Of a stretch of DNA of 33,714 bases, positions 23,022 to 33,714 are shown in pieces. The stretch lies in the NCBI RefSeq assembly GCF_024449025.1, contig NZ_JAHLKM010000027.1, positions 1 to 33,714 on the forward strand, in the 5' to 3' direction. The translations under genes and the position numbers were made by a program. The DNA is from Natronomonas aquatica. Lineage in GTDB: Archaea > Halobacteriota > Halobacteria > Halobacteriales > Haloarculaceae. A model generated the notes under the pieces. It saw only the letters and a list, made by a program, of their open reading frames with translations, did no database searches and was not told where the DNA came from. Within the stretch, counting starts at the first letter, position 1; each line of letters starts with the position of its first letter.

Positions 23022-23096
23022 GCTCCGTTGGTGTAGTCCGGCCAATCATCTTGCCCTCTCACGGCAAGGACCAGGGTTCGAATCCCTGACGGAGCA
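23022..23096 (+). tRNA. tRNA-Glu (anticodon CTC)
   Basis: 75 bases. The acceptor stem is GCTCCGT/ACGGAGC with discriminator A. The anticodon arm is TTGCC-CTCTCAC-GGCAA, giving anticodon CTC for GAG. The T-arm is CAGGG-TTCGAAT-CCCTG. A CCGTTATACG box A lies about 35 bases upstream, and a T/C-rich stretch follows the gene. The gene marks the left edge of the AT-richer accessory DNA and a recombinase gene follows, so its 3' end is the likely integration site. No second copy of its 3' end was seen in the window. Confidence 0.95.
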
Positions 23097-23200
23097 CTCC
23101 TTTCCTTTCGCCGTCCGGTGGTTTTGACCAGTGAATAATGGGTATATCCACCAATGTCATTGGGCAATCCGACTCAAGCGGCGTATCGAACCCCGCGCCC

Positions 23201-23317: not shown

Positions 23318-24445
23318 ATGAAGAACTCGAAAGAGGCAATCAACCCCCTTGAGGGCATTTCTATTGTGCCCGAACCGTCCGAGAAACTGCTCAACGAACG
23401 ACAGATCGTTGACTACCGGACTGAACGGGAACAGTGTCTCGAATGGTTACTGACGTTCGGCAAAGATCCGAGTAGCGCTGATGGGTATGCGCACTCGACG
23501 GTCAGAAATCGCGCCAGCCGTATGGACCAGTTCTATCGGTTCGTCTGGGAACAAGAAGACCGGTATACCTCATCGATTACGACCGATCATGCGGACGCAT
23601 ATCTGAATTACCTCGCTCGCCAAGAGAAATCAAACGGGCACAAATCCGCCTGTCGGAAGGCAGTAATGATGCTGTATAAATGGCGGTCACACCGCCGTGG
23701 CGGTGATGAGTGGACACCGCAAATCACGTTCACGCGGTCAAGCCAATCGACCACTCCTCGTGACTACCTGACGCGAGAAGAACGTGCCAAGATCCGAGAC
23801 GCTGCGCTGGAATATGGGAGTGTACCTAACTTTGATAACGTGTATGGTGATCGTCGTGAGCGGTGGAAAGCTTACCTTGCACAGCGATTTGAGAAACCAA
23901 AATCCGACATATCACGGGAAGACTGGGAGCGGGCGAACAGCTGGAAAATCCCGACGCTCGTCTGGACCAGCCTCGATGCAGGGCTCCGGCCTATCGAAGT
24001 TGAACGTGCAACTGTTTCGTGGGTGGATGTAGAGAATAGTGTACTCCGGATTCCTCATGAAGAAAGCTCGAAGAATGAAGAAAACTGGATCGTCAGTCTT
24101 CAGGACCGAACCGCAGAAATGCTTGAGCACTGGTTATCACAGCGGCAGACGAATGAGAAGTACGACGACACGGATGCGTTGTGGCTCACGCGTGAAGGAA
24201 ATTCATATGGATCCAGCGCACTCCGTTATGTCCTGCAGAAGCTATGCGATATTGCGGGAATTTCAACGGAAAACCGGACGATGAGCTGGTACGCGATTCG
24301 GCATTCCACAGGAACCTATATGACTCGTGAAGAGGATCTCGCTGCCGCACAGACACAGCTACGGCATCTCAGTCCGGAGACGACAATGAAATATGACCAG
24401 ACCCCCCCGGATACGCGCAGAAATGCACTTCAGAAGATCGATTAA
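23318..24445 (+). CDS. int: Tyrosine recombinase / integrase (haloarchaeal type)
   Basis: 375 residues. It should integrate and excise the element at the neighbouring tRNA gene. The N-terminal SAM-like core-binding domain is about 35-130 (HSTVRNRASRMDQFYRFVWEQ). The catalytic residues are R224 (SLDAGLRPIEVERA), K252, R328-H329 (SWYAIRHSTGTYM), H350 (LRHLSPETTMKY) and the nucleophile Y359. The usual HxxR box is YxxR here. Translation starts from a real Shine-Dalgarno site (GAGGTGA, 6 bases before the ATG), unlike the leaderless chromosomal genes. The stop codon directly abuts that of the next, convergent recombinase. Codon use and base content are more AT-rich than upstream genes. Confidence 0.9.
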   Translation: MKNSKEAINPLEGISIVPEPSEKLLNERQIVDYRTEREQCLEWLLTFGKDPSSADGYAHSTVRNRASRMDQFYRFVWEQEDRYTSSITTDHADAYLNYLARQEKSNGHKSACRKAVMMLYKWRSHRRGGDEWTPQITFTRSSQSTTPRDYLTREERAKIRDAALEYGSVPNFDNVYGDRRERWKAYLAQRFEKPKSDISREDWERANSWKIPTLVWTSLDAGLRPIEVERATVSWVDVENSVLRIPHEESSKNEENWIVSLQDRTAEMLEHWLSQRQTNEKYDDTDALWLTREGNSYGSSALRYVLQKLCDIAGISTENRTMSWYAIRHSTGTYMTREEDLAAAQTQLRHLSPETTMKYDQTPPDTRRNALQKID

Positions 24446-25813
24446 TCACGATGAACTAGACGGTTCCTCATTTGAGAGAAGTTGACGACTTATTTCGGCT
24501 CTATTCCCTGTCGTGTCCTTTAGATGTGCGTTGACATGGAACCCACTATCTGTCGAGGTAATTGCGTCTTCAGGGACAGTTTCTTTTGCTTGTCCGAATT
24601 TTGTTTGGATGTCAACGTCAGCGTACGGCTCGTATTCTGGATTGTTCGCCGCTCGCTCAGCCTTTGACCGACTTTTATTCAACGTCTCGCGTCGCTCTTC
24701 AGCCGCGGAATTCCCATATGTCGACACCGTCGTCTCGTACGTATTGTGCCGCAACTGATCGTTGGTCTGATTTAGCGAACCGTCCGATTCCATGTGCTGA
24801 CCAATAGAGTGTCGAAGACTGTACCATCGTACCGGTCTGTCCTCATACGGGACTTCAGCTTCGTCACACAGCTTGCGGACGAGTCTACAGAGACTCCCGG
24901 ACTGGTATGGGTTACCTTCTCGGTTCAGCCACAGTCTATTGGCTCCATCATATTTCTCTAGATGCCGTCGTTCACGGATCCAGTAGCTCATGGCTTCATC
25001 CGAATCATCAGACAAGGATATAATCTCTTTCTCACGCTCTTTCGACGCCGCTTCTGTGGGTATCTCCAAAACCTGCCTTTCAGGCTTGTACCAACTCACT
25101 TTGGCTCGGCCGACCTCAATCGGCGTGAGGCCCGCATCGTATCCCACTGAAACAAGCGACCATATTTTCGCACTTTGATCCGCCTTCCGCCAATCCTCAC
25201 GATTCACAGCCTCTTTCGGTTTACTGAGCCGTTGGGCGACAAGGCCATTAATCCGGTCGCGTTCTTCAGACGACGTTTCATAGTATGACGGGAGCTTTCC
25301 GTATGATTGTGCTACTTCTAATATTCGACCAACCTCTTCGTAGGTAAATTCAGCTGCACTTGTATGATTTCCATCGGAGAATTTGATGCCTGGCTGCCAT
25401 TCAAATTCTAGATCGTTAGTGTAGTACCGCCACTCAAAGTACTTTTTCAGTGCGTCCGATAACTTGCGTTTGCTATCATATAGTTCACCGTTTTGCTTGG
25501 TGATTGTATCCTTCGCAAGAAGCAGTAGCAACTCATCAGCTTGATCAGGACCGATTGTAACTTCATTTTCTATGTCTAGTAGTGAGATAGCATGACGGTG
25601 AAGTTGATCTAACCGGCTTATGTAGTTTGACGCGGTCCGGTCTGCCAGCTCGTCCTCTTTGACATGGTTTTTACCTCGCTCTCGCATCCACTCATAGAAT
25701 GACTGGTACTCGTCATCTATCTGGACGTGACTGTCGCCAGCTAGTTCGGCAAGGTGTTCGCTAATCTGTTGTAGTTCGGTGCTGTTGTCGTCCGTACAGG
25801 TATCCTCTACCAT
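24446..25813 (-). CDS. Second tyrosine recombinase homologue lacking catalytic Arg I
   Basis: 455 residues and clearly homologous to the neighbouring recombinase: residues 201-240 here align with about 196-235 there (NREDWRKADQ against SREDWERANS, and DAGLTPIEVGRAKVSW against DAGLRPIEVERATVSW). The first catalytic arginine is threonine (T230, codon at 25124-25126). The other residues remain: K258, R334-H335 (RWYSLRHSIG), H356 and Y366. An extra C-terminal tail of about 80 polar residues follows the tyrosine. A TTTAAG TATA-like box (about 25841-25850, minus strand) sits about 32 bases before the ATG. It may be a regulator, a directionality factor derived from a recombinase, or a decaying integrase. 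The frame is intact, which argues against simple decay. Confidence 0.85.
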   Translation of the reverse strand: MVEDTCTDDNSTELQQISEHLAELAGDSHVQIDDEYQSFYEWMRERGKNHVKEDELADRTASNYISRLDQLHRHAISLLDIENEVTIGPDQADELLLLLAKDTITKQNGELYDSKRKLSDALKKYFEWRYYTNDLEFEWQPGIKFSDGNHTSAAEFTYEEVGRILEVAQSYGKLPSYYETSSEERDRINGLVAQRLSKPKEAVNREDWRKADQSAKIWSLVSVGYDAGLTPIEVGRAKVSWYKPERQVLEIPTEAASKEREKEIISLSDDSDEAMSYWIRERRHLEKYDGANRLWLNREGNPYQSGSLCRLVRKLCDEAEVPYEDRPVRWYSLRHSIGQHMESDGSLNQTNDQLRHNTYETTVSTYGNSAAEERRETLNKSRSKAERAANNPEYEPYADVDIQTKFGQAKETVPEDAITSTDSGFHVNAHLKDTTGNRAEISRQLLSNEEPSSSS

Positions 25814-26052: not shown

Positions 26053-26260
26053 GCTTCAGCAGTGTGATGGCTTCTTGAACCAGGAAGGTATCGGAGTTCA
26101 TTAGCAAAGGTTCGGAGAGGTGCTACACACGAGAATTATCAGAAATCTATTATAGTTGATGTGGCTTTGGAACGACGCTTCTCTCATAGTATGGATATTT
26201 ATTTATTTTATTATACTGAATATATCTAACCTTTTTTCAATTTCTTCTCATACAATTCTG

Positions 26261-26700
26261 ATGCTATTTATAACGAGCGGCGCTGTACAGCGGTTTCATA
26301 CTTTGCATATGCTATTTATAACATCGGCGCGATTTCTGTTGTCTGGCGGTTTTTGGTTTTTCGTATGCTATTTATAACGAAGGGATTCTCATCTTTTATC
26401 AATATTTTGTTAGGTGATCTTACTATCCATAGTTGCGGGTTAATTGAGTGTGATCGTAATTGTTAGTGAAATTCCACTCCCGTCTATGAATTTCCGGGGA
26501 TTCGTACTGTTTTTCTGGTAAAACGGGGGACGTTTGCTTGCTTGCGGTTTTTATGAATTCGTATTGAATTTATAACGAGGGTTAGTACCCGTTACCCTCG
26601 TCACCGCGATCATTCTATGATTCTGCAAATTAGACCGAATTCCGCACCGGTTCCCTGTGGCGATTTTATGTGTTCTATATTGAATTTATTGTGAATTTAT
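26261..26700. repeat. Repeated AT-rich motifs (iteron-like)
   Basis: ATGCTATTTATAAC occurs exactly three times (26261-26274, 26309-26322, 26365-26378), 48 and 56 bases apart. The variant ATTGAATTTATAAC is at 26563-26576, and its core TGAATTTAT recurs twice at 26681-26689 and 26692-26700. Copies 1, 3 and 4 continue with CGA. Each contains a TATA-like core, but the spacing leaves no room for genes between the first copies. They may be binding sites for a replication initiator or a repressor. Confidence 0.6.
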
Positions 26701-26744
26701 AGAATTCGCCTGTTCCAGCACCTACTCCGCTAAAATCTCTTGAT

Positions 26745-26765
26745 GTTGCTAAGGGCTTTAGCAAC
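26745..26765. other. Perfect hairpin in the non-coding stretch
   Basis: GTTGCTAA (26745-26752) and TTAGCAAC (26758-26765) are separated by a 5-base loop, GGGCT, and extended by one T-A pair. It could be a terminator for rightward transcription or an origin hairpin. A GGATATATCAAATACC stretch just downstream (26771-26786) is a possible rightward TATA region for the folded segment beyond it. Confidence 0.4.
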
Positions 26766-26852
26766 ACTAAGGATATATCAAATACCGTAACCCCCGTCTC
26801 AAAACAACTCTATCACTCCCGTGATTTTCCGTAGTTGTGTGTACCTATTGGT

Positions 26853-27296
26853 GGCTTAGAGGCATTCAACCTCAGAGCCGGTTGTCTCTCCCGCCGACGG
26901 GCGGCCCACATTCAAGCGCTATGTGGGATCCGGCTTGTGTATCTTCTCCTCACTTTTGTTAGGTGAAACTGCTACCGCGTTGACGCGGGTGTCGTTGGGG
27001 TTATCGTCGTGGGGTACTGCACCCGCTGTAAGAGGTGTACAGCAGAGCTGCCTTTCTGGGCGAGCCACAACGCGCGGTAGGAGTAACCGCGCTGTTTGGC
27101 TGGCACGTGTGGACTGCAGTCACCCTGTCGGGGTAGCTTGTTCCCTCACTCCAATAAGCCATCATACCAAGTTACTGCAGCAGTCAGCTACTGGCTGTAC
27201 TGGCTTCAAGAATCAACTGTTCATAGCGGCGTCCAATCAGTCGTGTAGCTATCGGGACTGTAGTCCCTACACTACTATCCGGTCACTAATGCGGAT
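26853..27296 (+). ncRNA. Candidate structured non-coding RNA (run of about ten hairpins)
   Basis: Many perfect or near-perfect inverted repeats with short loops follow each other. GGCT..GAGG/CCTC..AGCC spans 26853-26879. A three-way junction has P1 AGCCGG/CCGGCT (26876-26881/26930-26935), P2 CCGCC/GGCGG (26891-26895/26900-26904) and, directly abutting, P3 CCCACAT/ATGTGGG (26905-26911/26921-26927). CCGCG/CGCGG spans 26975-26988. GGGT/ACCC (27012-27024) abuts GCTGTA/TACAGC (27025-27043). A long stem GCCA-AAC-GCGCGGT with its partner has a 7-base loop (27064-27100). ACCC/GGGT spans 27122-27134, CAGTCAGC with a bulged partner 27181-27202, GTGTAG-GGACT with its partner 27243-27272, and ATCCG/CGGAT 27277-27296. 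Wobble pairs (T26857-G26875, G26875-T26936) weakly favour the plus strand. Transcription is not shown. Confidence 0.4.
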
Positions 27297-27321: not shown

Positions 27322-28485
27322 TTATGGCGAAATTACCTGCCGGATGTCAAGCCATGTGATCTGACCACTCCCGCGATCTAAACACGACCGTGCGGCATCA
27401 TCTATGATCTGTGCCAACTCAGCTGCACTCATTCCTTGGGTCCAGCCAGCAATCTGTTCAAGATGGTCTTCGGAGAGGCTGTTCGGTCGGTCAGCCAGTT
27501 GTACGCGGAGAATCTCTTTTCGGGCTCTTTGATCTGGTAATCCGATGTGTGCCTTCTTGTCTATCCGACCCGACCGGATTCCTGCTTCGTCTAGTGATTC
27601 CAGTCGATTAGTCGCGCCGATGAAGATGATATTGTGGTCTGACGCTGTTTCCAGATGGTTGAGAAATTCGTTGACGACTTTATTGTCTTCTTCGTGGGCG
27701 GTCTGATTGCCGCGCCGTTTTAAGACTGAATCTAATTCGTCTAGAAATACGACTGCACCGCCCTCTTCTGCGGCAACCTGCCTTGCCTCGTCGAATAGCG
27801 TCCGTACTTTTTGTGCCGATTCGTTGATCCATTTACTCTGGACATCGGACCCACTTAATTCGACAAATGGAAATGCGAGTTCTGACGCAAGTGCTTGCGC
27901 GAGATATGTCTTGCCAGTCCCGGGTGGGCCGTGGAAGATGATATTTGATGGAGAGATGTCGAGTTGCTTGGCCTGCTCTCTGTGGGTCGTCAGTGGTTTG
28001 ATAACATCTCGACGGAGCTCCTGTTTGACATCGGTGAAGCCACCTACATCGTCGAAGGATACGTCTGTCTCTGTCTCCCACCGATATTGCAGCTCCGGTG
28101 AATCCAATGACATCGGACTTGATCCTCTACTGTCTCCTGGTTCGGAGTCGTCTCCGTCGCTGGTCCGCGTCGTTGACTGCTGGTTCGATGCCGATTGTGT
28201 CTCACGGTGAACGGGGTCCGGTGTTAGTTGTTGTCGGGTCGATTGGTCGTATGAATCAGACCATTGCATTGTCTTTTCTCGGACTACTTCGGGATCAATC
28301 GACTGGGTATCTTGGGTCGAGGTGGTGGGTGTATCGAAGCTATACCAAGCATAACCAATCACAACAATCGCTCCTACAGCAAGTAGAATACCACTGGAGA
28401 TGATCGCTCCAATCGCAAGGGTAATAGTTCCAATAAGTCCAGCCGTCGCTATCGGAAACTTAGCGAATATCATTATGTGAATCAC
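27322..28485 (-). CDS. Membrane-anchored AAA+ ATPase (FtsH/Cdc48-like module, no protease)
   Basis: 387 residues. Residues 8-48 are hydrophobic (one hairpin of two short segments or one long one), placing the ATPase on the inner membrane face. A disordered Ser/Thr/Gln/Asp linker follows (about 52-135). The AAA+ domain starts at VSFDDVGGF (142-150), with Walker A GPPGTGKT (186-193), a pore-loop-like SKWIN (217-221), Walker B VVFLDE (245-250) and sensor-1 GATN (290-293). GIRSGRID (302-309) is the arginine-finger region. It ends after the helical lid (GWTQGMSAAELAQIIDDAAR) without a zinc protease domain, so it is not a complete FtsH. It overlaps the upstream nuclease gene by 4 bases. The GTG at 28485 is used; an ATG at 28473 is equally possible. 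It probably remodels a partner protein. Confidence 0.85.
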   Translation of the reverse strand: MIHIMIFAKFPIATAGLIGTITLAIGAIISSGILLAVGAIVVIGYAWYSFDTPTTSTQDTQSIDPEVVREKTMQWSDSYDQSTRQQLTPDPVHRETQSASNQQSTTRTSDGDDSEPGDSRGSSPMSLDSPELQYRWETETDVSFDDVGGFTDVKQELRRDVIKPLTTHREQAKQLDISPSNIIFHGPPGTGKTYLAQALASELAFPFVELSGSDVQSKWINESAQKVRTLFDEARQVAAEEGGAVVFLDELDSVLKRRGNQTAHEEDNKVVNEFLNHLETASDHNIIFIGATNRLESLDEAGIRSGRIDKKAHIGLPDQRARKEILRVQLADRPNSLSEDHLEQIAGWTQGMSAAELAQIIDDAARSCLDRGSGQITWLDIRQVISP

Positions 28486-29057
28486 TCACCGGTTGTTATC
28501 CAAGGTAGGAGCGTCAGTTCATCGGGCTCTACAACATAGTTTTCATCTGATCCAGGGTATCTGCGCGGTTCACGGTCTGTTACTGTTTCTTGATCCGCAT
28601 ATCCATGCAACCGTACACGCACACTTTCCGCTCCCCACCCAATAATGTGAGCGAGGATATAGAGATCCGCGCCTAACGTCTTATGTGGTTGAACGAGGAG
28701 ATCTGGTCGATCCATAGCTGTTGTTGCGGTTCCCTTGACATCGATTGATTGGTCCCATAGATCGAGATCGATCCCGTCGTCGCCAGATCGGTATGCCTGC
28801 GTGTCAATATTGGATGAGTAGGCTTCTCCAACTGCCATTTCACAGATGATCCCGATCAAATGACTCATACGCGAGTCTGAGGAATACACGTCACCGCCAT
28901 CAATACGTTCGTATGAGTGATTACGATCGTATGATAAAGCAGCCGCTCTTCGGATCTGATGCTTATCTAATTCAACGACCGGAAGCGATTCAACTGAAAC
29001 GTCTGTTGGCGAAACCGTGCCGAGGGATTTTTCTCGGGTGGACTGTTTTTGTTTCAT
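28482..29057 (-). CDS. PD-(D/E)XK nuclease-like protein
   Basis: 191 residues. The core reads E78 (CEMAVGEAY), then GDD94-GID97 (RSGDDGIDLDLWDQ), then ID106-V-K108 (SIDVKGT). This is the E...D...(D/E)xK layout of restriction-type nucleases, in the GE/GDxGxD/DVK form seen in several phage and mobile-element proteins. Helices and strands follow (TLGADLYILAHIIGWGAESVRVRLHGYADQETV). The N-terminal 35 residues are polar and variable. Translation starts after a GGTGA ribosome-binding site 8 bases before the ATG. Its stop overlaps the AAA+ start, so the two are one operon and probably one machine. The 5' region carries a folded segment (29083-29158). I do not know a named family for it. Confidence 0.7.
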   Translation of the reverse strand: MKQKQSTREKSLGTVSPTDVSVESLPVVELDKHQIRRAAALSYDRNHSYERIDGGDVYSSDSRMSHLIGIICEMAVGEAYSSNIDTQAYRSGDDGIDLDLWDQSIDVKGTATTAMDRPDLLVQPHKTLGADLYILAHIIGWGAESVRVRLHGYADQETVTDREPRRYPGSDENYVVEPDELTLLPWITTGE

Positions 29058-29082
29058 GCTGTTTCACCTTTCTCGGGTGGAC
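29030..29082. repeat. 14-base direct repeat flanking the nuclease start codon
   Basis: TTTCTCGGGTGGAC occurs at 29030-29043, inside codons 5-10 of the nuclease gene, and at 29069-29082, in its leader. The period is 39 bases, with the start codon between the copies. On the mRNA strand the motif reads GTCCACCCGAGAAA. It could be an operator pair, a small tandem duplication, or a translational control site. Confidence 0.55.
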
Positions 29083-29158
29083 AGCCCTGGTCGCGTGTGC
29101 CACCACGCGGCCCCTCTAGCCGTGATGCCGTTGGGGCAAGGGCTACCTGTGCATAGGT
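29083..29158 (-). promoter_or_regulatory. Candidate structured 5' leader of the nuclease-AAA+ operon
   Basis: A compact three-way junction and an extra hairpin fill the segment. P1 is AGCCCT/AGGGCT (29083-29088/29139-29144). P2 is a 9-pair stem (29089-29097/29104-29112, one T-G wobble on the plus strand) directly abutting P1. P3 is TGCC/GGCA (29126-29129/29135-29138), directly abutting P1'. P4 is ACCT/AGGT (29145-29148/29155-29158), again abutting. An AT-rich GAAATACAAAT (minus strand, about 29174-29187) could start transcription near 29155, which would place the fold in a leader of about 100 bases ending in a Shine-Dalgarno site. The single wobble would favour a plus-strand RNA instead, so the strand is uncertain. 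No known riboswitch class was recognised. Confidence 0.4.
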
Positions 29159-29241
29159 GCTGTACTTAGTAGTAGATTTGTATTTCTAACCGGATAGTGT
29201 GAACATCGTTTAAGACTACGTAAGGTTATCATCCTGTGACG

Positions 29242-29493
29242 ATGGAAGATATTCCACAGCCCTCTTCAGAACCATACGCGTCTGGCGACCGGGTTCGAGT
29301 TTACGTCTCTTCTGATGACCCTGATTCGCAGCATCACGACCTCACAGTAGAAATAATAGACGTACTCCGAGATGATTTAAATTCAGAGACCGGACGGGAT
29401 CTTGACGCGTACTACTATTCAGTACGCGATATTGAGACCGAAGAAATTCTTCCGGTACAGTTTCGTCATCACGACTTAATACCTGAAAGCTAA
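29242..29493 (+). CDS. Small haloarchaeal protein, DUF8139-like
   Basis: 83 residues starting MEDIPQPSSEPYASGDRVRVYV. It looks like a small beta-barrel (SH3/KOW-like) fold: GDRVRVYVSSDDPDSQHHDLTVEIIDVLRDDL, then ETGRDLDAYYYSVRDIETEEILPVQFRHHDLIPE. Proteins of this kind are scattered across haloarchaea, often in accessory DNA; the DUF8139 label is from memory. A GTTTAAGAC TATA-like box lies about 30 bases upstream. An in-frame GTG two codons earlier is possible. It is divergent from the nuclease gene and convergent with the helicase gene, with 24 bases between the stops. Function unknown. Confidence 0.7.
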   Translation: MEDIPQPSSEPYASGDRVRVYVSSDDPDSQHHDLTVEIIDVLRDDLNSETGRDLDAYYYSVRDIETEEILPVQFRHHDLIPES

Positions 29494-29517: not shown

Positions 29518-32500
29518 TTATATCGTTTCCCAGACTTCCGGGACTTGGCTAATATCATCAATCGGGACAACTCGGTACCCCATTCGCTTGAGGCGATTTC
29601 TCTTTTGCTCGTCGTCTTTTTTCACGTAATCTTTCTTATGGACAGGTCCATCGACGAACACCGCTATCGGCGTCCCTTCCCGGTGGTAGAAGAAGTCCGG
29701 CTTAGCAACCGGCTCATCGCCATCGTAGATGGTATGTTGTGCTTCATCCGGGAGTTCGAAGCCCCCATCTCGAATCGCATGAAGTACTTCCCGCTCAAAG
29801 CTGGAATCGCAGGCGTTCAGTAATTCTTCGAATTCGCTTTCATCTTCAGTCTCGTCAGAAACTTCGCTCAAGCCAGCAATTTCCATAGTCTCCAGCCAGC
29901 CATTGACTAATGTTCTGTCGAACAGTTCGTGCTCTCGCTGGTTGTAGAAGGACATCAGACACTCGTAACACGCCCGCTCACAGCCTTCGTCATCTGGAGC
30001 TCCATGAAGGACTGTCTGAGCTTCTCGAACAACGCCCCGGAACCGTGCTTCATCCATTAACGAGTGAAGCATCCCAGCACCACCTTCGCTCGTTTCGTAG
30101 ATAACGATTGTTTTGAAGCCATGTTCCCCAATAGACGGTTTCACGAACGTATCAATCTCCTCTTCATCCAGATCAAAGGCAACGAGAATACCTTGATATA
30201 GAGCTTCTTTGAGCGTGTGGAAGAACTCATCGGCTTGCTCTGGTTCGACATCTGACGGAAGGGGTGTCGTCAGCGTCATCGTATCGTGCTGTCCCTCTGA
30301 AAAGAGCTCTATGTCCTGCTTGATGGCCTCTTCAGACGCATTTGCGTAGCAATCGGGATCATCTTCGTCGACGTGATTTTCGATTTGATCCTCGCTCGTC
30401 AGCCATCTGTTGCACTCCATACAGAGCGCGAAGCCGTGGAAATCTTCATCGGCATCCCGGAGTCCGCTGTTGACGATAACGATGTTCGCGCTTCCTTCGT
30501 AGGTGATGCGCGCATTGAGGACATCACCTTCGAGATCGTATATTTGTGGATCAGATCGTTCGTAGTAACTATTGATCTCGTATCCCTGCCGCCGACGCTC
30601 TTCCTCATCACTAGTAATGTACTCCTCAGGCTGAGCGTGTTGATCAGGAAACTCCATCGCGTTTGGATTCGGATGCGTCCCGTCGAATGGAGTCTCACAT
30701 GAGGGGCACGCAGCGGCCTCTTGTGCGTCTTCTCCCATCAGGATGGCCTCACACTCGGGACAAACACGCATCTGTCGTGTGACCGGCTCAGCGTCTTCTG
30801 TCTGTGGGCGAGCATACCGTATTGCAAATCGCTCACCAGCGTAGTATACGTGGTTTCCTGGGGCGAATTCGTTTATTGCTCGCGTCTGATCGCGCTGAAT
30901 GTCGTCTTCGCGGGACGTAAATGTCAGTGTCGTGCTGTCCCGGGGGAACCCGTAATTCGGCAGGAAACCTTGGGATCGCAGATATTGGTAGGTGTAGAAG
31001 CGCTTGTTGCCCGAGCGCATATCGTCGAGACGCTCTTCGATTGCATTGCGCTCGATGCGATCTTGATACGATCCACCTTCGGTACCTAGTAGTTGATTCA
31101 GTCGACGCAGTTCACGGTACAGACGGCTATACTCCCGTCGCCAGGGATCAAACGCCGCATCGAGGTTAACCACGAAATTACTCACCTGTCGCTCAATGAA
31201 GTCGTCGGTGAACCACTCCGCAACTTCATCATCGTCGCGCTCCCGGACGAACGCCTGTTTCACGGCCTGAACGATTTCATCTTGGTTATTGTCGACAGCA
31301 GTCTCTAGATCGCCCCGGAAGTCAGGCATAATTTCGTAGTTGTTCTCTTCCGGTTCGATCACCAGCATCTGCTGCGGCTCACTCGGGAACTTCAGAGCAA
31401 TATGTTCCAGCACAAGCGCGTTTATGTGAGACTCAATCAAATCCTGGTTGTTCAGCAGGAACGTCGGTGGGCTGATTTCCCCGGCGATGATCCGCTCTGG
31501 ATTTCGGTAGAAGTACTGATCGTGAGATCCACGTCCAAACCCACGCCCACAAAATGTCGTTACGAGCGATGGCTGATTCTGACGACCCGCCCGTCCGGAG
31601 CGCTGAGCATAGTTACTGGGATTCGGCGGGACGTTTCGCATATACACATTCGAAAGATCACCGATGTCGATCCCGAGCTCCATCGTCGGTGTCGAGACGA
31701 TCGTGTTCACTTTCTCGCCTTCCCGGAAATCCGACTCCAGCTGTTTTCGCTTCTCGTTTTCAACCTGTCCGCTGTGCTCGCCGGCGATAATGTCTACCGC
31801 GTCATCGAACGACTCTGTGTAGAGATTATGGAAGTAGGACGTTTCGAGGTCTGTTTCTTCGGGAGTGATTGAATCACAACTGTAGTTCAGACACACATCG
31901 AGTTCTTCGCGGGTGGTCGGCGTGCCACATTTCGGGCAGATCCGAACGTCATCCGGATCGGCGTGTGTCACGCGAATCGCGCTGTGACTCAGCATATAGA
32001 CTTTCCCCGTGTACTGGAGCGATTCCTGTGTCAGGAGCTTGAGTATCTCATCGTCACTAATGGTGTCAACGACACTGTTGATGATTTCCGTAGCAGTCTC
32101 AACATCGACATCGAGTGCACGGGCAGTCCATCGAACATGCCGAGAGCGGGGATGGGTGAGACGCCGAACGCGATGTCGCCCACTCGTGCTTGCGGTGTCG
32201 CTATACCCAACTGGGAAATTGAAGAATTCCTGTCCGTGGAAGTGCACCTCGTCGTCTAGTTGGTTGATGACGTTGCGTTTGAAATCCGCGAAATTCATCG
32301 TACTCTCGTGGTCAATGGCGATACTCCGCCGAAACATGTCCAAGAAGCCATTAAGATACTCTTCGCGGATCTTCGAACTGGTATCTGAAAGGACCGGAGT
32401 TGATTCCCACACTTCCTCGTCATCGGCTAGTCGATCAAGATTTTCGTACTTGATGTCGATTAGTCCGACATCTTCGAGGCTTTGTTGGGTTCGCTGTTGC

Positions 32501-33696
32501 TCACGACCTAGTTCGAGGATGACGTTGAATAGGAGATATTCACTGTAATTAATTCGATCCTCTGCAGAGGGGCCATACCGACCGCCGTCTAATGCTGGCG
32601 GAAGTGCGTCTTCCTCTTCAAGCAGATCGAATACTTCGTTACCGAGCTCAGTGAGTGTGACATCTTCTTCTCGTTCAAGCGTGTGATAGAGGGAACGTCG
32701 GAACCGAACGCGCTGGTAGAGATTGTTAAGGTGCGCTGCTTGTAGAGCAGTATCCTGCCGATTGTCTGAAAAGGCGATCGTCTTCTGTTGATCCTCGGGC
32801 AGGTTCCGCATCGTATTCCCGATGAGAACGTCGGTCGCGGTTGACCGCCCCACCGTTCCGAACGTGAATAGCTTGTTGAACTCGTTTTTAACCCGTCGCG
32901 TGTAGTGAACGCCGCAGTTCGGACAGAAAAGGAACGGTTCGTTCACGCGCATAACTTCGACCCCCTGAGCGGCGAAGCATCCACAGTCGAGTTGTCCCTG
33001 TTCAATGTGTCCTGGCGTCAGTTGGTCACACTCGGGACAGTAGGTCGCTGGGCGCGGTTCTGCTTCGCTGTATGTATCGCTAAGTTGGTCGTTATCATTC
33101 ACCCACTCGTTTGGGAGTGGAGCCGTTTCAGGATCCCACTGACCCCGCATAAGATACGCATCCTCTTCGTCTTCGTCTGTATCAACGAGGGTACTCAGAG
33201 CACCCTGCGAAACCTGATTCTCGCCGTCGATTACGACCGTGTAGTACTCCTGTCCGCAGCCTCGGCAGAACGACAGCGGGTACGCAGCCCGCGTACGGTC
33301 GTGTTCTTGTGCACAGGTTCGACACTCGATGTCGCCTGCGTCACTTAGATGCGGGACTTCATCGTCGAACGCCTCGTCCGTGAGGCAGGAGACGAGCCCA
33401 CTACCCTGACTAAAGAACGAGTGCAGCTTCGGGATGAATATTGGTTGCTGTTCACCCTGGATCTCGGTCGTACCTACAGTCCCGACCAACAGAGCAGCCT
33501 GTAGCTCACGCTCGATGGCTTCGCGGTCAGCGTTCGGACGGTACTGCTCTTGGTACCGGGTTACAAGATCATCTTCATCGTCTTCGTCACCGGCAAAAAT
33601 CTGCTGACTCTGTGAACTCAGCTCCTCATCCAAGAATTTGGTCGTGTCGCAAAGCGGTCTAGAGTTTGCCTCTGGTGCTCTCAATTGAGAGGTCAC
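29518..33696 (-). CDS. C-terminal part of a DUF1998-type SF2 helicase with a Vsr/DUF559-like nuclease domain
   Basis: 1392 residues. Visible in order are LHSFFSQGSGLVSCL (91-105), zinc-type cysteine clusters (C125/C128, C144/C147, C220/C223, C258/C261), and helicase motif IV-like TIAFSDNRQDTALQ (306-319). Next come motif V TPTMELGIDIGD (669-680), motif VI QRSGRAGRQ (698-706) and a DUF1998/MZB region with YETSEGGAG and CERACYECLMSFYN. The last 100 residues form a nuclease-like domain (FEREVLHAI, KPDFFY, VFVDGPVHKKD, RLKRMGYRVV). Walker A and DEAH motifs are absent. An in-frame TGA (33702-33700) lies just before the GTG at 33696, so the first RecA domain must be a separate gene, frameshifted, or lost. 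DruE of Druantia and DISARM helicases share the domains. Assignment to either is not supported here. Confidence 0.75.
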   Translation of the reverse strand: MTSQLRAPEANSRPLCDTTKFLDEELSSQSQQIFAGDEDDEDDLVTRYQEQYRPNADREAIERELQAALLVGTVGTTEIQGEQQPIFIPKLHSFFSQGSGLVSCLTDEAFDDEVPHLSDAGDIECRTCAQEHDRTRAAYPLSFCRGCGQEYYTVVIDGENQVSQGALSTLVDTDEDEEDAYLMRGQWDPETAPLPNEWVNDNDQLSDTYSEAEPRPATYCPECDQLTPGHIEQGQLDCGCFAAQGVEVMRVNEPFLFCPNCGVHYTRRVKNEFNKLFTFGTVGRSTATDVLIGNTMRNLPEDQQKTIAFSDNRQDTALQAAHLNNLYQRVRFRRSLYHTLEREEDVTLTELGNEVFDLLEEEDALPPALDGGRYGPSAEDRINYSEYLLFNVILELGREQQRTQQSLEDVGLIDIKYENLDRLADDEEVWESTPVLSDTSSKIREEYLNGFLDMFRRSIAIDHESTMNFADFKRNVINQLDDEVHFHGQEFFNFPVGYSDTASTSGRHRVRRLTHPRSRHVRWTARALDVDVETATEIINSVVDTISDDEILKLLTQESLQYTGKVYMLSHSAIRVTHADPDDVRICPKCGTPTTREELDVCLNYSCDSITPEETDLETSYFHNLYTESFDDAVDIIAGEHSGQVENEKRKQLESDFREGEKVNTIVSTPTMELGIDIGDLSNVYMRNVPPNPSNYAQRSGRAGRQNQPSLVTTFCGRGFGRGSHDQYFYRNPERIIAGEISPPTFLLNNQDLIESHINALVLEHIALKFPSEPQQMLVIEPEENNYEIMPDFRGDLETAVDNNQDEIVQAVKQAFVRERDDDEVAEWFTDDFIERQVSNFVVNLDAAFDPWRREYSRLYRELRRLNQLLGTEGGSYQDRIERNAIEERLDDMRSGNKRFYTYQYLRSQGFLPNYGFPRDSTTLTFTSREDDIQRDQTRAINEFAPGNHVYYAGERFAIRYARPQTEDAEPVTRQMRVCPECEAILMGEDAQEAAACPSCETPFDGTHPNPNAMEFPDQHAQPEEYITSDEEERRRQGYEINSYYERSDPQIYDLEGDVLNARITYEGSANIVIVNSGLRDADEDFHGFALCMECNRWLTSEDQIENHVDEDDPDCYANASEEAIKQDIELFSEGQHDTMTLTTPLPSDVEPEQADEFFHTLKEALYQGILVAFDLDEEEIDTFVKPSIGEHGFKTIVIYETSEGGAGMLHSLMDEARFRGVVREAQTVLHGAPDDEGCERACYECLMSFYNQREHELFDRTLVNGWLETMEIAGLSEVSDETEDESEFEELLNACDSSFEREVLHAIRDGGFELPDEAQHTIYDGDEPVAKPDFFYHREGTPIAVFVDGPVHKKDYVKKDDEQKRNRLKRMGYRVVPIDDISQVPEVWETI

Positions 33697-33714
33697 AGTT
33701 CATTGCTGTTTTGG

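Follow-up and report, generated by a model that had tools for sequence, protein, structure and literature searches.

Two overlapping genes on the reverse strand of the window (the whole stretch of 33,714 nucleotides analyzed here, which is contig C31 of the 3.2-Mb, 82-contig genome of Natronomonas aquatica) constitute, by sequence comparison, a conserved and mobile unit. The upstream gene, NUC (28482..29057), encodes a 191-a.a. PD-(D/E)XK-like protein, and the downstream gene, AAA (27322..28485), encodes a 387-a.a. AAA+ ATPase that is predicted to be membrane-anchored. NUC is preceded by a switch-type 5' leader RNA (29058..29147, reverse strand), which the preliminary description did not include, belongs to an RNA family unlisted in Rfam 15, and is the more surprising of the two results. 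With a little better than even confidence, NUC and AAA are interpreted as a leader-gated, two-gene conflict module that moves as a unit among mobile elements and defence islands, and that most likely acts against viruses or competing elements. The pair is a tangible candidate for a previously undescribed defence or conflict system of archaea, and offers defined candidate catalytic residues for mutation.

The AAA protein has a classical AAA+ module (Pfam AAA, 2.8e-38; AAA_lid_3, 2.5e-7), with a Walker A motif at residue 186, a KWINES pore-loop, and a DELD Walker B motif that contains Glu250. Two hydrophobic segments at the N-terminus (residues 1-19 and 25-43) potentially anchor it in the membrane. 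No peptidase domain was found with Pfam, as AAA_lid_3 reaches residue 382 of 387 and the protein then ends; the AAA+ ATPase without a protease put forward in the preliminary description is therefore confirmed. Among PDB sequences, AAA is closest to the D2 domain of Cdc48/VCP (1e-84), and its closest match in NCBIfam is FtsH. However, AAA is a single ring domain with its own N-terminal membrane segments, it scores far below the cut-offs of these families, and it lacks the M41 metalloprotease that follows the AAA module of FtsH. Two AAA relatives (L103, 9360-10865; L104, 8508-10022) have, in place of the membrane segments, a long extension at the C-terminus, and appear to form a soluble sub-family. 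Distant membrane AAA+ relatives (L125, 6497-7870; L126, 6506-7882) share a conserved plasmid gene cluster with a DUF87 ATPase; the replicons are of type MPF_T, and the cluster may belong to a transfer apparatus of haloarchaea. No AAA relatives were found in IMG/VR viral contigs.

In an alignment of 14 NUC homologues, Glu73, Asp93, Asp97, Asp106, and Lys108 make up the invariant acidic/lysine set. Four of these (Glu73, Asp97, Asp106, and Lys108) match the conserved E ... D ... (D/E)-x-K active-site signature, and the E-x23-D-x8-D-V-K spacing agrees with the signature of PD-(D/E)XK nucleases. An earlier assignment of the motif to Glu78, Asp94, and Asp106-x-Lys108 holds for the last two residues, which are invariant, whereas Glu78 and Asp94 vary among the homologues and Glu73 and Asp97 belong in the set. 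NUC is called a putative nuclease, with a predicted fold, at the level of motifs only, because it has no family match in Pfam, PADLOC, or NCBIfam, a PDB sequence search with the NUC profile retrieved nothing, and the AlphaFold model, built from a shallow alignment of 3 sequences, has a pLDDT of 53.8 and gave no structural match with Foldseek. In this low-confidence model, the motif residues lie on a helix and then on strands. A comparison of NUC with archaeal Hjc by hhalign gave no signal. The phage protein family phrog_18407 matches 8 of the 14 homologues (PHROG matches are families without an assigned function), and solo distant homologues occur at loci L025-L035, several of them close to integrases. 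These distant homologues and phrog_18407 suggest a broader virus/plasmid family of nuclease-like proteins. No NUC relatives were found in GenBank phages and plasmids or in IMG/VR viral contigs.

The NUC and AAA ORFs share 4 nt (GTGA), in agreement with the translationally coupled pair first described. A profile search for AAA over 391 class-level genomes yielded 13 close members (>370 bits), and NUC is directly adjacent on the same strand in 6 of these loci, which come from two GTDB families: the window, contig C64 (a second copy within the N. aquatica genome), Halorubrum halophilum B8 (G434), Halorubrum persicum C49 (G347), G123, and G322. The copies often overlap and are about 45-53% identical across subgroups. 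By the author's own estimate, which assumes random placement, ~0.002 adjacent cases would be expected among 13 AAA loci, and the pairing recurs in archaeal genomes far beyond chance. AAA relatives without NUC are present in contig C80 of the N. aquatica genome and in G186, G417 has NUC without an adjacent AAA, and no third gene is constant beside the pair. Between contig C64 and H. halophilum, a 2.39-kb block, 89% identical, consists of the two genes with flanks of about 200 bp, beyond which the sequences are unrelated. Since this block holds just NUC and AAA in unrelated surroundings, the pair is taken to be the unit of transfer. Judged by dN/dS, both genes are under purifying selection (0.15-0.24 for both in the closer trio; full range 0.09-0.24), with values of 0.09 for NUC and 0.14 for AAA against their orthologues in L101.

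The pair is located in an integrated element, as had been proposed, downstream of a tRNA-Glu(CTC) that serves as the attachment site (23022..23097, forward strand) and of two integrases: a tyrosine integrase (23318..24445, forward; Pfam Phage_integrase, 8.8e-16) and a second integrase-family protein (24446..25813, reverse; Pfam Phage_integrase, 8e-8). This layout is repeated in L101, which has the same tRNA-Glu, both integrases, AAA, and NUC in common with the window; in G123, the pair is found near an integrase beside a tRNA-Leu. Most genes that flank AAA-family loci are involved in restriction or defence. They include McrBC (McrB-McrC), AddAB (AddB-AddA), Mrr, Hma, a GmrSD-like HEC-05, DrmMI/type IIG enzymes, a D12 methylase, a GajB-like helicase with an HNH protein, and DruE-like helicases.

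In the window, the neighbouring gene (29518..33637, reverse strand) codes for the C-terminal portion of a DruE-like helicase (PADLOC DruE3, 2.6e-78) and is broken at the contig end; it is not the helicase-nuclease that it had been taken for. PADLOC alignments of this ORF start around profile position 930-1040, and Pfam finds only Helicase_C. The gene is probably truncated by an IS, because the ORF starts about 20 codons inside a ~77-bp repeat of contig ends and has an in-frame stop just upstream. The 77-bp sequence at positions 33638-33714 recurs at the ends of contigs C44, C49, and C58, and probably corresponds to the end of the inserted IS, which broke the assembly. DruE was considered as a constant partner of NUC-AAA and rejected, as it is absent as a conserved neighbour of the pair; the likeness to Druantia is limited to this broken fragment, and neither a complete DruE nor other Dru components were found among the ORFs scanned. 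Divergent from NUC lies a gene for an 85-a.a. haloarchaeal protein (MEDIPQP...; 29236..29493, forward strand), which is an occasional companion: homologues are divergent beside NUC in G417 (L110, 10828-11076) and beside AAA in contig C80 (L036). An accessory or anti-defence function of this protein is possible. On the other side of the pair, a 1.17-kb non-coding stretch (26088-27260) shares 69% identity with the end of contig C29 of the same genome and is missing from the otherwise syntenic L101 element. It contains four copies of a 41-nt repeat with the core TATTTATAAC, and gave no match in Rfam.

NUC-AAA was originally said to match no named system, and the PADLOC comparison agrees with this. 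The component HMMs of Gabija, Hachiman, Zorya, PARIS, and the other PADLOC systems gave no match to NUC and no matching pair, and those that match AAA (IetA, TRIP13, and mad8) do so partially. IetA is the best of these (2.2e-32), and IetAS likewise places a defence AAA+ ATPase in a two-gene operon. On the other hand, the IetA match spans the AAA core only and reaches 104.8 bits against an NCBIfam cut-off of 510, and the partner IetS is a subtilase, whereas NUC is PD-(D/E)XK-like and has no S8 or any other Pfam domain. The general idea is also in common with ATPase-nuclease dual-enzyme defence pairs (PMC11291478), and no homology of NUC to any such pair in PADLOC was found.

The leader extends from the 5' strand of a helix, P1, to the base before the NUC start codon (AUG, 29055-29057), and was delimited by a covariance model (CM) and folding. 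In the 5' to 3' direction on the reverse strand, it consists of the P1 5' strand GGTAGCCCT (29139..29147), the P3 hairpin GGCCGCGTG-GTGGCA-CACGCGACC (29089..29112), a shared middle strand AGGGCTGTC (29080..29088), and the P4 3' strand ACAGC (29058..29062) immediately before the AUG. The CM (R1) matches the window leader at 29005-29115 with 72 bits (E-value 3.9e-14, own genome). About 50 nt before P3, an AT-rich zone comes to an end, which is consistent with a transcription start near P1. Upstream of NUC, GGCCGCGTG-N6/7-CACGCGACC is unchanged in all six pair loci, and the rest of the leader diverges. Across a wider set of 106 aligned CM matches (105 distinct), 98.3% of the cells of P3 pair, and compensatory changes occur in 7 of its 8 pairs, with variants such as GCGTG/CACGC, CGGTG/CACCG, ACGTG/CACGT, GTGTG/CACAC, and GCCTG/CAGGC. 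The covariation score of P3 is 0.387, compared with 0.078 ± 0.010 for shuffled and 0.015-0.058 for slid controls. Because the CM was trained on an invariant P3, these changes are new information, and the covariation supports conservation of the 5'UTR fold.

Two partners are available to the strand that follows P3 on its 3' side: one lies about 50 nt upstream (forming P1), and the other is the pre-AUG strand (forming P4). RNAalifold on a MAFFT alignment recovers P3 only, since MAFFT misaligns P1 and P4, and the two helices were therefore assessed by dealing partner strands among 63 leaders less than 60% identical, a procedure that does not fully remove relatedness. The mean helix score is 6.56 for P1 against 5.27 (sd 0.14) for shuffled partners and 5.88 for P4 against 4.22 (sd 0.13), and no shuffle attains the observed value in either case. 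P1 and P4 have at least 3 nucleotides in common in 61 of 65 leaders, and the forced P1 and P4 folds of these 65 differ by a median of -1.9 kcal/mol under standard energy parameters, which do not represent molar salt. With the same parameters, the two folds of the window leader are nearly equal in energy, at -37.8 kcal/mol with P1, as a three-way junction, and at -36.0 kcal/mol with P4. Folded as a single sequence, the leader is unremarkable (z -1.16), and the support is comparative. Comparison and modelled energies thus indicate that P1 and P4 are mutually exclusive, with one of them predicted to occlude the initiation site. Translational riboswitches and other structured leaders similarly use exclusive helices, one of which covers the pre-AUG bases; the NUC leader differs from those known in its absence from Rfam 15 and in a shared region that extends about 13 codons into the coding sequence.

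In the proposed mechanism, the AAA+ protein would act as a membrane-embedded, hexameric remodeller, sensing or threading a target, and would license or deliver NUC, the effector, for cutting DNA. As a nuclease is dangerous, translation of NUC is proposed to be gated by the leader through its two exclusive folds. In the P1 fold, the pre-AUG bases would be free and NUC translated; in the P4 fold, they would be paired and initiation blocked, with a presumed trigger selecting between the two. AAA, being translationally coupled to NUC, would follow its expression. The sequence comparisons support the pairing, mobility, purifying selection, defence context, and leader architecture, whereas nuclease activity, membrane topology, the trigger and direction of switching, an antiviral role, and the initially suggested action on incoming DNA are inferred.

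The main rival to the defence reading is a role of the pair in processing or maintaining the DNA of its host element (transfer, replication, or resolution), because the wider AAA relatives are grouped with DUF87 ATPases in MPF_T-typed plasmid clusters and not in defence loci. NUC would then cut its own element, while AAA would anchor or move DNA at the membrane. The integrases that the pair adjoins at a tRNA, those frequently found near distant NUC homologues, and the phrog_18407 matches would fit such a role. Nevertheless, the Halorubrum pairs and that of contig C64 have no integrase nearby and lie among restriction genes, and NUC-AAA transfers between backgrounds as an isolated cassette; this explanation is rated rather unlikely. 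Less probable still is an addiction pair resembling toxin-antitoxin systems, in which the coupled AAA+ protein would neutralize or remodel a toxic NUC. The translational overlap, the toxin-first order, the tight translational gating of NUC, and the mobile context would all be expected of such a pair, but membrane-anchored AAA+ proteins of 387-503 a.a. would be unusual antitoxins, and the related NUC of G417 has no adjacent AAA.

It is very unlikely that the leader acts at the DNA level, as an operator or transcription element, rather than as an RNA switch. Although P3 is a strong inverted repeat that is conserved exactly in the NUC loci, elsewhere it varies by compensatory pairs while it retains a C.A mismatch and the hexaloop, P1 and P4 covary through their shared strand, and the leader lies downstream of the AT-rich promoter zone and abuts the AUG. 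Weakest of all, and scarcely credible, is the explanation that NUC and AAA are unrelated island genes brought together by chance. Haloarchaeal islands do gather many defence genes, which makes adjacency less improbable than at random positions, but six co-oriented, often overlapping copies, about 45-53% identical across subgroups, greatly exceed the expectation given above.

The conflict-module reading finds no marker in the leader by itself, as the leader also precedes many small proteins that are not related to defence. A pattern search of the 391 genomes located the element before unrelated genes, and 19 of these instances were used for the CM. At E ≤ 1e-3, the CM detects the leader in 174 of 292 haloarchaeal genomes, with up to eight per genome; across the phylum, it matches 12 of the 24 genomes that belong to the order and 0 of 124 outside it, which bounds its false-positive rate. 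The leader is thus a two-fold structured element found in more than half of the sampled haloarchaeal genomes, and in viral contigs, before unrelated genes. Rfam 15 gave no match at the gathering score for the window region or 13 leader loci, and a literature search found no description of the element. The 104 proteins encoded downstream fall into 19 sequence clusters. The largest (n = 40) includes both small zinc-finger proteins and SWIM zinc-finger proteins, the latter carrying this annotation in named plasmids; a family of ~100 a.a. (n = 17) is found on Haloprofundus halobius plasmids, and NUC (n = 8), a DNA-methyltransferase-like protein, and others follow. The leader is present before 8 of 8 close NUC genes and absent from distant NUC homologues and AAA-only loci. 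That it is fixed before every SWIM zinc-finger gene was considered and rejected, as five named plasmid SWIM genes have no or a weak match.

The genes that bear the leader also share their first ~13 codons (ATGtcaActAc..Ac......gAAaAa.gtacCGAc), and the first 14 codons of NUC (29016..29057, reverse strand) are, like the leader, conserved among unrelated proteins. These otherwise unrelated proteins have N-termini of the type MSTTHTxxExRTD in common, as well as the underlying nucleotides. Two explanations are conceivable: the RNA element continues past the start codon, or the encoded peptide is itself important.

Leaderless transcripts are common in haloarchaea. In Hfx. volcanii, a 5'UTR stem-loop reduces translation to a degree that scales with its stability (PMC2636863). 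Very few natural riboswitches are known from archaea, and the fluoride riboswitch of Thermococcus was the sole experimentally determined one as of 2021 (PMC8241225). A broader reading, plausible if somewhat short of an even chance, is that the leader represents a haloarchaea-wide, virus-shared class of riboswitch-like translational switches with a common trigger. Its targets would be scattered mobile and chromosomal genes, namely those for SWIM and small zinc-finger proteins, a DNA-methyltransferase-like protein, and NUC, and an RNA sensor would arm NUC-AAA as a defence module. Once the trigger is identified, a so far unexplored level of gene control in archaea, toxic or defence genes included, would become accessible. 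The DNA-methyltransferase-like protein (456 a.a.; leader at L143, 1429-1528) is one of the few large proteins that bear the leader. In three IMG/VR viral contigs, the leader precedes small genes (L251, 2784-2883; L253, 1416-1514; L258, 2983-3084), suggesting that viruses use, or have captured, the element.
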